Source of the DNA: a virus
Reading direction: 5' to 3' (one strand)
Length of the DNA: 64,000 nt
IMG/VR virus record: IMGVR_UViG_3300035703_000070
Location: 1-64,000 of that record
The notes beneath the pieces were generated by a model. The model searched no databases. It was not told the origin of the DNA and saw only the letters and a list, made by a program, of their open reading frames with translations. Position 1 is the first letter of the stretch. Every line of letters begins with the position of its first letter. The position numbers and the translations under genes are program-made. Positions 6,065 through 63,444 of this stretch are shown piece after piece.

Positions 6065-6073
6065 TGCTATGCT
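6065..6073 (+). promoter_or_regulatory. Extended -10 promoter for the 6080 RNA
   Basis: TGC followed by TATGCT forms an extended -10 box. The predicted start, about 7 bases downstream, falls at the first base of the closing stem of the RNA. No good -35 is visible, which is normal for extended -10 promoters. Confidence 0.45.
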
Positions 6074-6079
6074 TTGCAG

Positions 6080-6268
6080 GCTTGAGTTGGTCCTGGGCGA
6101 AAGCCCCGTCGTTGATGCCGTGAGGGTGGACGCTTCAGAACAGTGGGTGACTTCGCGAGAACCACCAAGGCATTGCATGGGCCTGTGAGGCACTGTTCCC
6201 CTTTGTTGAGGGACAATGGAGCATCGGAAGCTCAAGCAGCGGGAAGGGGGAGCGAAAGCTCCCCTTTT
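6080..6268 (+). ncRNA. Structured non-coding RNA candidate, about 190 nt
   Basis: Plus-strand RNA inside a minus-strand gene array. Predicted stems: closing 6080-6086 with 6231-6237 (GCTTGAG/CTCAAGC); hairpin GGGC-GAAA-GCCC at 6095-6106 with a GNRA loop; 6114-6118 with 6221-6225; and a perfect 8-bp stem 6138-6145 with 6191-6198. The 8-bp stem encloses two hairpins (6146-6149/6163-6166 and 6168-6171/6181-6184). A terminator ends it. Size is like 6S RNA, but the branched fold differs and I assign no family. No convincing frame lies inside. Confidence 0.6.
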
Positions 6269-6270
6269 CT
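6247..6270 (+). terminator. Terminator of the 6080 RNA
   Basis: Perfect seven-base stem GGGGAGC/GCTCCCC closed by a GAAA loop and followed by TTTTCT on the plus strand. The orientation is opposite to the flanking genes. Confidence 0.85.
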
Positions 6271-6318
6271 ATTGCTTGCGAGAGCTGTGAGTGTTTTATC
6301 CGGCAATGATAATTTCAT

Positions 6319-58103: not shown

Positions 58104-58595
58104 ATGCCCACTCCCATTGAATTTGTCTTCTCCGAAGAGGAAAGGAAGCAGGCGATGGAGGAAGGACAAAGGCGACAGTCGGTAAACGCCGCAAAGGCGC
58201 TAAGGGGAAGGAATGGGGGTGCGTCCTTTGGGGCCAAAGCCTTGGACATTCACCTTCTGGGCGCCGCCGGCGAGATGGCTGTAGCTTCGTACCTTGAAAT
58301 GAAAGATTTTTTGTTTCAAGAACAGGAGGCCCGTCGTGGATCATGCGACCTGCCAGGTATTGACGTTAAAACCAGGAGCAAGCACTGCTACGATCTCATC
58401 GTGCAAAAACGAGAGTCTCCAAGTAAAAAATTTGTCCTTGTGACCATTGAGGCTGGAAAAACTTTGATTCATGGCTGGTGCTACGGGCATGAGGCCATGA
58501 AGGAAGAATACTGGGCCGACCCGGCTAGAGGAAGGCCCGCCTATTTCGTCCCCAAAGAAAAACTTCGCAATATTACATCGCTGACGCATGAGTGA
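58104..58595 (+). CDS. PD-(D/E)XK nuclease-like protein
   Basis: 163 residues from MPTPIEFVFSEEERKQAM. Core: HLLGAAGEMAVASYLEMK with Glu, then SCDLPGIDVKTRSKHCYDLI, the D...D-x-K arrangement of the fold. It resembles small phage nuclease-like proteins near terminase. A direct role in packaging or DNA end processing is possible but not shown. Confidence 0.7.
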   Translation: MPTPIEFVFSEEERKQAMEEGQRRQSVNAAKALRGRNGGASFGAKALDIHLLGAAGEMAVASYLEMKDFLFQEQEARRGSCDLPGIDVKTRSKHCYDLIVQKRESPSKKFVLVTIEAGKTLIHGWCYGHEAMKEEYWADPARGRPAYFVPKEKLRNITSLTHE

Positions 58596-59205
58596 AAATC
58601 AGCAATTTTACGTTTACGCATATTTGCGCAGCCAAGATTCTTTTTGTGGCCTCAAGTGGAGTCCTTATTATATTGGCAAGGGCCACAAAGGGCGAGCCTT
58701 TAAACATCACGGACGGAGATGTCCAGCTCCGAGGGACAAGAGCTACATTGTTTTTGTTCAGGAAGGGTTAACTGAGCAAGAAGCGCTGAAACTGGAGCAA
58801 TATTGCATTGCTCTTTACGGAAGGATCGATATTGGAACCGGTATTCTGCATAATTTAACCGATGGAGGAGAGGGAGCATCTGGCATGAAACACGGAGAAC
58901 AAGCGAAACAAAAAGTGTCGCAAGCCAGGCGCGGCAAGAGATTGTCCATGGAGCATAGGCTAAAATTATCGCAATCACACAATGGCAAGACATTGTCGCG
59001 TGATCACAAATTAAATATTGGACGAAAAAGTTTAAGACATCTTTACGAGTTTATTGATTTAAGCGGCGAAGTGTATATCACGGAAAATGCTAGTGACTTT
59101 TGCCGCCAGCATGGATTAGATGATGGCTCCATGTCAAAAGTTATTCATGGAAAAAGAAATTGCCACAAAGGCTGGACTGGACGCATCGTCGAAACATTGC
59201 AATGA
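58588..59205 (+). CDS. GIY-YIG homing endonuclease with NUMOD3-like repeats
   Basis: 205 residues. GIY-YIG domain at 1-95 (FYVYAYLRSQDSFC, WSPYYIGKGHKGRA, EALKLEQYCIALYG). NUMOD3-like repeats follow (KQKVSQARRGKRLS, RLKLSQSHNGKTLS, KLNIGRKS), then an HTH part. It overlaps the nuclease stop and the terL start. A paralogue lies at 62354. Confidence 0.88.
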   Translation: MSENQQFYVYAYLRSQDSFCGLKWSPYYIGKGHKGRAFKHHGRRCPAPRDKSYIVFVQEGLTEQEALKLEQYCIALYGRIDIGTGILHNLTDGGEGASGMKHGEQAKQKVSQARRGKRLSMEHRLKLSQSHNGKTLSRDHKLNIGRKSLRHLYEFIDLSGEVYITENASDFCRQHGLDDGSMSKVIHGKRNCHKGWTGRIVETLQ

Positions 59206-60584
59206 GCAACTCTCTCAAATGCAGCGACTTTGCCAAGCACGTACTAAAGCTTGAGCTTTGGCCTGAGCAAAAACGCATTCTTGATGGCTACTTTGGCGGC
59301 AATAAAACTCATGCCGTATGGGCACTTGGGCGACGCTGTGGCAAAACGCTTATGGCTGCAATTGCAGCTCTTTATGCTTGCTTTGTTCTGGAGGATCAAT
59401 ATAGAAGGCGCGTGCGCAAAACTGAAAAATGGTACATTCTTACCATTGCCAACGACCAGAGCCAAGCAAAGCTTGCCCTGAATAACATTCGCCAGTTGCT
59501 CATGGACAGTCCTCTTGTTGATGAAATCACAAGAGAGACTGCCACGGAAATTGAAACCAGCAACAATTGCGTGTTTCAAGCCATTCCCGCATCGGCTCGC
59601 GCCTCTCGTGGCAAGGCCGTGGTGATGCTGATCATGGACGAGCTTTCCTTTGCTATTGAAGGCGATGCAAACCGTGGCGCAAAAGCTATTTACGACGCTC
59701 TGTCTCCATCTATTGCACAGTTCGGTCAGCACGGTCGCATCCTTGAACTTTCGTCACCTTGGCTAACCGATGGCCTGTTCTATCAGCATTATTGCGAAGC
59801 AAAGTCAGGCGAATTTCCCTTCATGCAGGCAGTAAATCTCCCAACTTGGGAGGTAAACGTCAATCTACCCTGGGGCTGTGCATTTCTAGACGCCGAGCTC
59901 AAGCGCGATCCTGATAAATTCTGGGTGGAATATGGCGCCCAGTTCGCAAAAAACAACTCTGCCCTATTGGCCACAGAGATTGTTGAAGCTGCTATCAACA
60001 AAGAGCGAGGAGTGCTCTTTCCTGAGAAAGAGTTTACCGGCACTTACGTGCTCTCTCTAGACCCAGCCCGAGGCGGCGTGGGGCGAGACGACTATACGGC
60101 TTGCATTGTTCACTACGAAGGCGAAAGGCTAGTCGTGGACAAGTTTCACGCCTTCGAGCCCGATTTCGAGATTGGCGGAAAAAAAGAAGTGAACATGGCG
60201 AAAGTAGAAGAGTGGATTAAAGAGCATCATCGCATTTACGAATTTCAGAGCATTGTTCTTGACCAGTTCAATAGTAGTTTTATTATTCAAAACCTATCAA
60301 AGGAATTCCCCATTGCGGAACTAGCCTGGTCTGTCAGCACAAAAATGAAAGCGTTCAGCAAAATGAAAGAACTGTTCAACGCTGGCCTCATTGAACTGTA
60401 TCCTCATCAAAAAGCAATCAGTCAGCTCAAAAACCTAAGCGTTATCTACAGGGCAAGCGGACAATGGGCGGTAACCGGTGGAAAGGAAGTGGGCGTTGAT
60501 GACTATGCCTTTGCACTTGCGGCAGCAATTCTTGAAGCATCCAAAGAAAATGACATTGACTGGCTGAATAGTCTCGTGCGATGA
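59202..60584 (+). CDS. terL: Terminase large subunit
   Basis: 460 residues. Walker A region ALGRRCGKTLMAAIAALYAC, Walker B VVMLIMDELSFAIEG, then the nuclease with LSLDPARGGVGRDDYTAC, SIVLDQFNSSFI and EVGVDDYAFALAAAI supplying acidic residues. This is the ATPase-nuclease that packages and cuts phage DNA. The ATG at 59202 overlaps the GIY-YIG stop by 4 bases. It is rightward, divergent from the portal. Confidence 0.93.
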   Translation: MSNSLKCSDFAKHVLKLELWPEQKRILDGYFGGNKTHAVWALGRRCGKTLMAAIAALYACFVLEDQYRRRVRKTEKWYILTIANDQSQAKLALNNIRQLLMDSPLVDEITRETATEIETSNNCVFQAIPASARASRGKAVVMLIMDELSFAIEGDANRGAKAIYDALSPSIAQFGQHGRILELSSPWLTDGLFYQHYCEAKSGEFPFMQAVNLPTWEVNVNLPWGCAFLDAELKRDPDKFWVEYGAQFAKNNSALLATEIVEAAINKERGVLFPEKEFTGTYVLSLDPARGGVGRDDYTACIVHYEGERLVVDKFHAFEPDFEIGGKKEVNMAKVEEWIKEHHRIYEFQSIVLDQFNSSFIIQNLSKEFPIAELAWSVSTKMKAFSKMKELFNAGLIELYPHQKAISQLKNLSVIYRASGQWAVTGGKEVGVDDYAFALAAAILEASKENDIDWLNSLVR

Positions 60585-61055: not shown

Positions 61056-61184
61056 ATGGTTTGCCTGTGCTATAGCCTTTATGGCCAAAGGCATGAAATC
61101 AGGGTGCCATTTCACGAGGCTCGTTTCGTCAATAAGCGTTTGTTCCTAGAAGGAGCCGCCGTTTACTGGACCTTTCTCTGTTAA
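61056..61184 (+). CDS. Possible 42-residue protein
   Basis: MVCLCYSLYGQRHEIRVPFH and on to a hydrophobic end. The frame starts 3 bases after the previous stop. However it overlaps the promoter-like box and the first stems of the structured RNA candidate, so it may not be a real gene. Confidence 0.3.
   Translation: MVCLCYSLYGQRHEIRVPFHEARFVNKRLFLEGAAVYWTFLC
61068..61076 (+). promoter_or_regulatory. Extended -10 box before the large RNA
   Basis: TGC then TATAGC. The predicted start is about 61083. The same TGCTAT core precedes the RNA at 6080 and, on the other strand, the tRNA-proximal RNA. It is a short match and could be chance. Confidence 0.35.
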
Positions 61185-61633
61185 GCTTTCAAAGCTTCCT
61201 GCAGGAGCCCGTTGGCCAACGGCTTGCCAGCATCCTCGTCAATGCTGGCACCATCGTGGATTCCGTTCACTGTCTTGAGTGAGTTGAAGCACTTAAGACG
61301 CATGGCAGAATGTCAGGGCCGCACCCTGTTTATTTCCTGATGCGGAAACATTCTGCCTCTCGCCTCTTCTGGTGATGAAAGCTGGTTTGATTCCAGCACG
61401 AGGCATTGTTTGATACAGTAAAGATACGTTTGCCCCGCAAGGGGTGCATGCAAGCCATCCATGAAACGGGGGATGGGGACCATGGAGAAACGGTCATGAA
61501 CAAGCTCATGCTTGTGAAGCTGCAGCTCCTGAAGGCCGCAAGGCTTCATCAGGCGCAGTTGGCTTCAGTCTACGGCTACCGCCCTTGCGTGGCCTGAAAG
61601 CTACATGGGCTCGCTACGGCGAGCCTTTTCTTC
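61083..61633 (+). ncRNA. Large structured RNA candidate
   Basis: A run of perfect or near-perfect stems: 61094-61099/61109-61114, 61225-61233/61242-61250 (9 bp), 61272-61281/61290-61299 (10 bp, one G-U) and 61304-61313/61348-61357 (10 bp). Inside the last stem, hairpin 61314-61328 has a loop (61319-61323) complementary to 61341-61345. A tRNA T-arm-like hairpin lies at 61381-61397, and a terminator is at the end. Ends are uncertain; the core is 61185-61446. It may resemble phage ornate RNAs such as ROOL or GOLLD in size and density, without sequence match. A 33-codon frame at 61496-61597 with a GGAG site is also possible. Confidence 0.55.
61181..61303 (-). CDS. Possible 40-residue antisense protein
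   Basis: Minus-strand frame starting MRLKCFNSLKTVNGIHDG. It coincides with three strong stems of the RNA candidate, which explain the sequence better. No ribosome site was checked as convincing. Low confidence. Confidence 0.2.
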   Translation of the reverse strand: MRLKCFNSLKTVNGIHDGASIDEDAGKPLANGLLQEALKA

Positions 61634-61819
61634 TTGGTGGTGAATGTAAGTTTTCAGTTCGTGCAAATAAGAGCGAAGCATGGCAGCCTTTTCTAGATGC
61701 CAAGGGTCACGATGGAGAAAGTAAAGCTCCATGTGATTATCAATGGCCTTTAAGCAATTGTGAATGGGCGCATTCCAGCGCGAACGGATCGGGGTGTTAA
61801 ACGTCCGACGATCGTCCAT
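61601..61819 (-). CDS. Hypothetical protein
   Basis: 72 residues, [20 protein letters not shown] at the start, then an amphipathic helix (LEKAAMLRSYLHELKTYIHH) and a basic tail. It overlaps the phosphoesterase gene by 23 bases. Function unknown. Confidence 0.65.
   Translation of the reverse strand: MDDRRTFNTPIRSRWNAPIHNCLKAIDNHMELYFLHRDPWHLEKAAMLRSYLHELKTYIHHQEEKARRSEPM
61608..61635 (+). terminator. Terminator downstream of the large RNA
   Basis: Perfect seven-base stem GGCTCGC/GCGAGCC, loop TACG, then TTTTCTTCTT on the plus strand. It overlaps the 3' end of the minus-strand gene at 61601. Confidence 0.8.
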
Positions 61820-62357
61820 TGGCTTTGAAATAAGCCTTGATGTCTTCTAATGCTACTGGCTCAAAGTTATTCCTCTCCAGGCAGGCATTGAAATAGCGCC
61901 TATCCACTTGCCCATCTTCTGTATGAACAAGATGGCAATGGAGATGGCCGTGAACATTGCCTCGATAATGACCGACAATATTTTTAGGGTGGACAGGGAT
62001 GTGCGTGAAGATGAGACCACCAAGCATGGTGCTATCACCATGGTGGAAATATGCCCCGCGAATGTCGTCGAAATATTGAAAATAGAGCTTAGCCGGAAGG
62101 CGATCGTGGTTTCCAGCAATCAATACTTTCCTTCCATTGAAGCCCTTCAAAAGCCTTAAGGCAGTGTTAGAGAATGCCACGTCACCAAGAACATACACAT
62201 TGTCTTTCTGGTGGACTTTCTTGTTCCAGCGCTCTTGAATTATTTCGTGCATTTCCTCAATAGAGGAAAAGGGCCGCATTGCCGAACCATCTGGCGCGTC
62301 AAACTCCAGAATCCTGGAATGACCCATATGAAGATCTGCCGTAACAAATGCTGTCAT
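61797..62357 (-). CDS. Metallophosphoesterase
   Basis: 186 residues. Metal motifs in order: D8-x-H10 (TADLHMGHS), G58-D59 (LGDVAF), G82-N83-H84-D85 (AGNHDRL), FTHIPVH and VHGHLHCH. This is the calcineurin-like phosphoesterase fold, with all metal ligands present. The substrate is unknown; phage members act on nucleotides or on nucleic-acid ends. A short diverged copy of its start lies at 62958-63005. Confidence 0.9.
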
Positions 62358-62929
62358 TTTGCTTCTTGATTGATTGGAGTGCGTGTTGCTGTCCAGCCTT
62401 GACAGTGAGGCCTTTCCCCCCTGGAGACAGCCCTGATGTTAGCGCTTTCCACCGATGGATGCTGGGTGCAAAATTCAGAAACAGTCAAACCAGTGATGAC
62501 TTCGCCGCTTGGCCCATAAAAGGTGTACTCATATTTTTTTCTTATTTGTCGGTAATGTTCTTTGGTTTTTTCTGAATGCTTACTTCCGCGTGGCCAAGGA
62601 TCCTGCCTGTAGCGAGCAGCCCTAATTCTTTCAATCACCTCCGGGGAGAATCCTGAGCTACCTTCCCCGCCTTGTGTCAGGTTTCTTAGTAAACCAGTAC
62701 CAATGTCTTTGCGGCCCAATACCGCAATCATGTAGCGTTCGTGCTTAAACGCTTCTTTTTCGGTTAGGTCTTTTTTGAGGATCAGGATTCGACTGGGATC
62801 ACTGGGTTTGTTTACGGCGCATCTTGAATGCGAAACCCATGCGCGATAGCCACGACCTTTGCCGATGTAATACGGTGTTCCGTCTTGCCTCATGTACGCA
62901 TAGGTGTAAAAATCTGCCTTCTGTCCCAT
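62354..62929 (-). CDS. GIY-YIG homing endonuclease
   Basis: 191 residues from [23 protein letters not shown] core ([19 protein letters not shown]), [16 protein letters not shown] and [11 protein letters not shown], then a basic C-terminal part with [20 protein letters not shown] (HTH-like). It is a paralogue of the gene at 58588 (shared NLTxGGEGxSG). It separates the phosphoesterase from its truncated duplicate start. Confidence 0.88.
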
Positions 62930-62957
62930 CGAGACCATGACACTAATCTTGGCCTCT

Positions 62958-63258: not shown

Positions 63259-63328
63259 GGGCTCCTCCAGGAATCGAACCCGGCATTCCAGGCTATCGGC
63301 CTGACGTGTAAGCCTACACTAAGGAGCA
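63259..63328 (-). tRNA. tRNA-like gene, possible Ile (GAU) anticodon
   Basis: On the minus strand: acceptor TGCTCCT/AGGAGCC with a mismatch at the first pair, T8-A9, a short D arm GTGT/ACAC with AGGCTT loop, anticodon stem TCAGG/CCTGG with loop CCGATAG (anticodon GAT, position 33 C rather than U), and a T arm CCGGG-TTCGATT-CCTGG. No encoded CCA. The parts fit a tRNA of about 70 nt, but C33 and the short D loop make it atypical; it may be a decayed or specialised tRNA. Confidence 0.65.
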
Positions 63329-63444
63329 AGTGACCCCCAAGTTTGAGCATCGTTGAGAGGCTTAGGGAGTGTTAAACGATGGAGCAAGCGTGAGGGTCAT
63401 CCGGGATTGGCTCCCAGTGACGCACAGAGGCTTGCCCTCCGTCG
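63329..63444 (-). ncRNA. Structured leader RNA upstream of the tRNA
   Basis: Minus-strand region from the predicted promoter to the tRNA. Stems: TGACCC 63331-63336 with GGGTCA 63394-63399; inside it CATCGTT 63348-63354 with AACGATG 63375-63381; and further hairpins at about 63405-63417 and 63422-63444. No protein-coding frame. It may be a processed leader or an independent RNA. Confidence 0.45.

Follow-up and report, generated by a model that had tools for sequence, protein, structure and literature searches.

Genomic setting of the RNA region

The DNA analyzed here (hereafter, the window) is a stretch of 64,000 nucleotides, part of a 70,314-base virus record. It encompasses the gene for the large terminase subunit (terL; 59205–60584), for which the closest relative among GenBank phages, with 62% identity, is that of Synechococcus phage S-CBS4. 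An RNA region lies between terL and a convergent set of genes (a 72-aa ORF, a phosphoesterase-like ORF and a GIY-YIG-like ORF), in a gene order that is common to the window and S-CBS4. Two GIY-YIG-like ORFs with an FYVYAYLR..YYIGKG motif (58588–59205 and 62354–62938) are located on either side of terL and the RNA region; both are possibly homing endonucleases.

The RNA region is predicted to consist, in order, of an uncatalogued noncoding RNA (ncRNA), a shrunken tRNA and a Glutamine-II riboswitch unit (Table 1). The initial annotation placed here a single candidate structured RNA of up to 550 nt, with a promoter-like extended −10 box upstream and a strong terminator downstream. Both signals are present, and so are the three long stems (9, 11 and 10 bp) and the T-arm-like hairpin that it listed; the pair of adjacent palindromic hairpins (61194–61222) and the riboswitch are additions of the present analysis. 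A 42-aa frame on the plus strand (61056–61184) closes with a Cys codon and a stop (TGT TAA) and shares bases with the ncRNA's −10 box; the end of this frame (NKRLFLEGAAVYW) appears to be conserved among the relatives, among which there are also TGCTATGCT variants that retain the −10 box without the stop of the frame.

Table 1 Features of the RNA region downstream of terL (positions in the window)
Feature	Position	Strand	Basis
Extended −10 promoter of the ncRNA, TGTTAAGCT; predicted +1 at G61194	61179–61187	+	Consensus motif and spacing; predicted start
ncRNA of 168 nt (predicted mature length)	61194–61361	+	Folding z, homologs beside terL, covariation; predicted ends
Hairpin 1, palindromic loop UGCA (61200–61203)	61194–61208	+	Covariation, loop tally
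Hairpin 2, CCGUU-GGCC-AACGG, palindromic loop GGCC (61214–61217)	61209–61222	+	Arms covary
Hairpin 3, 9 bp, loop CCUCGUCA	61225–61250	+	5 of 7 counted pairs changed on both sides
Small hairpin with conserved GGAUUCCGU stretch	61256–61270	+	Folding prediction only
Hairpin 4, 11 bp (10 bp plus one), conserved loop AGUUGAAG	61271–61300	+	4 of 5 counted pairs changed on both sides
Three-way junction (P5, P5a, P5b)	61304–61357	+	Covariation, covariance-model match
P5, 10-bp stem of the junction	61304–61313/61348–61357	+	
P5a of the junction, loop CCGCA	61314–61318/61324–61328	+	
P5b of the junction, loop UGAUGC	61334–61337/61344–61347	+	
tRNA remnant, acceptor stem (61362–61368/61398–61404) and T arm (61381–61397); predicted RNase P signal	61362–61405	+	
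Extended −10 promoter of the riboswitch unit, TGATACAGT	61411–61419	+	Motif and spacing in homologs
Glutamine-II riboswitch aptamer (RF01704)	61424–61477	+	Rfam 35.7 bits (gathering 33), E 4.8e-5
33-aa ORF downstream of the riboswitch, MNKLMLVKLQLLKAARLHQAQLASVYGYRPCVA	61496–61597	+	Frame; counterpart annotated as gp007 in S-CBS4
Intrinsic terminator, 8-pair stem (61607–61626) and T-rich tail	61607–61634	+	

Further RNA elements, known or candidate, lie elsewhere in the window. On the minus strand (63259–63369), an abiF RNA (RF03085; 63333–63369) adjoins a tRNA-Ile(GAU) (63259–63327), another RNA–tRNA neighborhood, and the same pair is present in L001 and L003. A second candidate ncRNA is located at 6065–6290 on the plus strand. 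The extended −10 and its 6-nt spacing (TGCTATGCTTTGCAGGCTT) recur in it, together with a stretch that folds well (z −2.9) and, as a strong terminator, GGGGGAGCGAAAGCUCCCC-UUUU. It has homologs in five or more related phage records, the two nearest being 93% and 71% identical, and matched no Rfam family.

Promoters and predicted transcription units

The extended −10 motif TGnTAnnnT is located exactly 6 nt ahead of hairpin 1 in all 67 distinct homologous upstream sequences, and none of the loci downstream of terL has hairpin 1 without it. With this fixed spacing, transcription is predicted to start at the very base that opens hairpin 1. The same motif precedes the Glutamine-II aptamer, again with 6-nt spacing, in 16 of 16 distinct loci. 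Because the ncRNA and the riboswitch have separate predicted promoters, two units are predicted instead of the 550-nt RNA proposed initially: the ncRNA with its tRNA remnant and, behind it, the riboswitch unit; in the window, no terminator was found between the two. Furthermore, each unit occurs alone: L014, L020, L021, L024 and L027 carry the ncRNA but gave no Glutamine-II match, and L033 has just the riboswitch. The locus may present two RNA units, driven by extended −10 promoters of one type, beside the packaging gene.

The riboswitch accounts for the distal part of the interval that was originally assigned to one RNA. By its Rfam score, this segment is a member of the Glutamine-II family (also known as Downstream-peptide), that is, a predicted aptamer belonging to the neighboring unit and not to the ncRNA. 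RNAs of this family sit ahead of short ORFs (PMC2864571), and a short ORF is found downstream here, too. What is already known at this locus is the riboswitch; the ncRNA of about 170 bases was previously uncatalogued.

Conservation of the ncRNA downstream of terL

For comparison, 80 terL relatives were retrieved. Among L001–L081, the window's own locus included, 71 loci include 1 kb or more of sequence past the end of terL, and in 67 of these, the ncRNA promoter and first hairpin are present on the same strand, 266–1360 bases beyond terL. As for the remaining four, L013 and L033 have lost the ncRNA, which implies that it is not strictly essential, and L028 and L046 carry other DNA in its place. 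The length of the ncRNA in the relatives is roughly 120–230 nt. Homologs that keep a reading frame but not the stems were not encountered; rather, it is the stems that persist as sequence and length change.

When a pattern covering just the 3′ domain was searched, the same kind of locus came back, except for L170, a chance match; L177 and L184 begin too close to where a contig or stretch ends for terL to be visible. When a model of the junction was run on 12 records, 11 gave one match each, and the twelfth (behind L128) contains a rearranged junction of the L080 type. A divergent form of the ncRNA was detected with the covariance model in the cultured Synechococcus phage S-CBS4 (29.4 bits, E 5.7e-8). 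In this phage, the junction of the ncRNA is located between gp008 and gp007 (L169, 3847–4050), together with a Glutamine-II riboswitch and a tRNA-Thr(UGU), in a segment that is unannotated in the GenBank record. S-CBS4 was found only through a neighboring gene, its terL and the covariance model, and a BLASTN comparison of the ncRNA with phage and plasmid sequences yielded no homolog. The search of a genome collection produced nine matches, of which one, L163, is real; it comes from a terL-bearing contig (coverage 0.33) that is labeled Dolichospermum but is probably phage DNA. Ten pattern matches that lack terL (L086, L106, L108, L110, L124, L129, L134, L145, L146 and L152) were discarded as chance.

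The ncRNA matched no Rfam family either at the gathering threshold or at permissive E-values (up to 5); the candidates rsmX, snoZ6 and IS1222_FSE scored far below threshold. We found no earlier description of this RNA in the open-licence literature. Taken together with the structural evidence below, we conclude with high confidence that the ncRNA represents a genuine RNA family, unmatched in Rfam, and very likely an independent ncRNA.

Structure and covariation

That this is a structured RNA, as initially suggested, is borne out both by folding and by the homologs, which show strong compensatory change. The stretch 61170–61480 folds with a z-score of −3.8, and 0 of 100 shuffled sequences fold as well; for the delimited ncRNA, the z-score is −3.65. 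The minimum-energy fold is a series of hairpins followed by a three-way junction. In the RNAalifold consensus of 40 full-length homologs, 18 of the 26 pairs show two-sided changes. Across 28 gapless sequences of the 3′ junction, 96% of the cells are paired, with a covariation score of 0.586 vs 0.211 for shuffled sequences and no more than 0.164 with the partners slid. Sixteen of the 21 counted junction pairs vary on both sides, four are invariant, and the last one is the A-U of a supposed pseudoknot (see below). Because the sequences are related, these figures are not probabilities; still, repeated change is needed for one position to show three or four kinds of base pair. A covariance model of the junction built without the window matches it at 61300–61362 (38.6 bits, E 3.8e-10). 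In variants such as L080 and L074, a hairpin resembling hairpin 4 lies within the P5b position, and the overall form of the junction is retained; L068, L070 and L132 are rearranged variants as well. The conserved stretch of the small hairpin is found in most homologs.

One proposed element of the structure is not supported by covariation, namely, a pseudoknot formed by a five-base hairpin loop. The P5a loop CCGCA (61319–61323) is indeed complementary to the downstream segment TGCGG (61341–61345). However, seven of the 28 homologs cannot form the A-U pair, and the GG of that segment also belongs to P5b, a covarying stem that exchanges its inner pairs. Between the junction loops, only one G-C and one C-G contact are invariant; a two-base loop–loop contact is possible. 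The 3′ junction, with its nearly invariant loops (CCGCA and UAxxGC), is the conserved core of the ncRNA and the part most likely to offer a binding surface.

tRNA genes and a minihelix behind the junction

In more than 20 loci, no more than a few bases separate the junction from the start of a tRNA-Leu(UAA), and in S-CBS4 and L179, a tRNA-Thr(UGU) lies directly 3′ of the ncRNA. The same place in the window, and in L001–L003, L005, L006, L008, L009, L072, L087 and L183, is taken by a tRNA cut down to the acceptor stem and T arm. ARAGORN found no tRNA in 61362–61405, where the D arm and the anticodon arm of a functional tRNA are both absent; a tmRNA, which the T-arm-like hairpin could suggest, was detected by neither ARAGORN nor Rfam. 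The pairing of the minihelix is largely retained across eight sequences, with compensatory changes in both helices, a modest case of covariation in which acceptor pair 6 is mostly mismatched. Several relatives have neither a tRNA nor a minihelix. An acceptor stem and T arm suffice as a minimal substrate of bacterial RNase P. Putative processing of the ncRNA by this enzyme is well motivated.

Palindromic loops and possible self-association

The sequences of hairpins 1 and 2 are palindromic, perfectly or nearly so. All 58 distinct sequences tallied (10 distinct hairpins) have GGCC or GCGC as the loop of hairpin 2, with a switch between the two on a single stem sequence, CCGUU, where the window has GGCC and L183 has GCGC. 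GGCC and GCGC forms are also found in CCAUC (L025) and CGCU (L068, L074) stems, and GCGC in the longer CCACUAG and CCACUGG stem types. The loop of hairpin 1 is UGCA, GGCC (L052) or CGCG (L179 and S-CBS4). The search that supplied the members of the tally demanded UGCA or GGCC in hairpin 1; L052, L179 and S-CBS4 were found via terL or the 3′ domain, and hence their loops are unselected. The single exception seen is hairpin 2 of S-CBS4, with the non-palindromic loop GGACG.

The computed gain from dimerization through hairpins 1 and 2 is about −20 kcal/mol (−10.5 in S-CBS4), compared with about −5 kcal/mol for other hairpins of the same RNA. Switching of loops from one palindrome to another has been taken by Kretsch et al. 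as evidence for intermolecular loop pairing in the OLE and GOLLD RNAs (PMC12286853). By analogy, putative self-association of the ncRNA through its palindromic loops is well motivated. Against it, loops of only four bases are tight for a kissing contact, and an extended duplex would be required instead.

Proposed mechanism and alternatives

From the observations above, we infer, tentatively and as the best reading although somewhat short of probable, a phage structural ncRNA that is freed by host RNase P and self-associates. Transcription would begin at G61194 from the extended −10 and, in many relatives, would continue into the tRNA directly behind the junction. Host RNase P, in forming the tRNA 5′ end, would release the ncRNA with its 3′ end just past P5. 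In the lineage of the window, the tRNA would have shrunk to the acceptor–T-arm minihelix that RNase P needs, retained for processing and not for translation; if so, this may be a case of a phage tRNA gene reduced to a signal for RNA processing. The two 5′ hairpins would expose their self-complementary loops, and copies could pair through these into dimers or, given two different symmetric contacts, into chains or rings. The fully specified version of this proposal, in which a compact self-assembling RNA of about 170 nt forms chains or rings during infection through two independent symmetric loop contacts, and host RNase P generates its 3′ end at a tRNA, reduced in certain lineages to a pure processing signal, is a conjecture that, taken as a whole, we regard as doubtful.

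The best-preserved letters of the ncRNA are unpaired: hairpin 3 exposes CCUCGUC, hairpin 4 GUUGAAG, and the junction CCGCA and UAxxGC. These stretches could instead bind mRNAs or a host protein; under this possible but not probable explanation, the ncRNA would be a monomeric regulatory sRNA or a protein-binding decoy, with the palindromic hairpins merely serving as a stable 5′ end. The CCUC in the hairpin 3 loop could pair with ribosome-binding sites. However, a stable 5′ end needs no palindromic loops that switch as palindromes, and several members, such as L044 and L073, lack hairpin 3. The tRNA genes that begin so close to the junction could suggest a leader serving the tRNA in cis, for example, by aiding its folding, processing or expression, but this is unlikely given that the ncRNA is retained without a tRNA in, e.g., L021, L026, L055, L070, L073 and L171.

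We consider slightly less likely still a packaging RNA that works with the terminase, like the phi29 pRNA, to which the ncRNA is close in size and similar in the possibility of loop–loop self-association. To our knowledge, pRNA occurs only in phi29-like phages. The constant position downstream of terL on the same strand can be explained by gene order alone, the terL of this phage is ordinary, and L013 and L033 lack the ncRNA although a related terL is present. It is very improbable that the ncRNA is part of a riboswitch leader, one 5′ UTR ending in Glutamine-II control of the small ORF: the two elements are adjacent on the same strand with no terminator in between in the window, but the promoter right before the aptamer and the separate occurrence of each unit speak against it. 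Finally, a DNA element (an operator or packaging site), suggested by two adjacent palindromes immediately downstream of a promoter, is hardly credible because the arms vary freely provided that pairing holds, and the non-palindromic helices covary likewise.

Comparison with known RNAs

The ncRNA can be compared with several known RNAs. The phi29 packaging RNA is a phage RNA of similar size with a packaging gene nearby and multimerizes by loop pairing; it differs in structure as far as known, the terL system here is that of a siphovirus, and a packaging role would be conjectural. The Rfam model of the phi29 pRNA gave no match to the ncRNA in whole-library scans (E up to 5). The acceptor stem and T arm of the remnant in the window resemble tRNA acceptor–T-arm minihelices, with the difference that this one derives from a phage tRNA and sits behind an ncRNA. 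The ncRNA would share with loop L9.3 of OLE RNA a symmetric contact made by a palindromic tetranucleotide (GGCC), with exchange for other palindromes, but the two differ in structure, host range and size (PMC12286853).

A further parallel is with ROOL and GOLLD, which are likewise phage RNAs with a complex covarying structure, near tRNA genes and with no protein product, and with loops each able to pair with its counterpart in a second copy (PMC12286853). In agreement with the initial annotation, which saw no sequence match to them, the Rfam covariance models of ROOL and GOLLD did not match the ncRNA at the gathering threshold or at E up to 5. The ncRNA is also far smaller, about 170 nt vs about 580 and over 800 (PMC12286853), and occupies one fixed place behind terL, with a single tRNA directly 3′ rather than a tRNA island; its oligomer formation is a prediction from the palindromic loops and computed dimer energies. 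Should that prediction hold, the ncRNA would work like a small ROOL or GOLLD while being a member of neither. ROOL and GOLLD assemble without protein, have no known function and are difficult to study, and a small RNA of this style, conserved across a group of cyanobacterial siphoviruses, including the cultured S-CBS4 (Synechococcus CB0101), would make the question testable.
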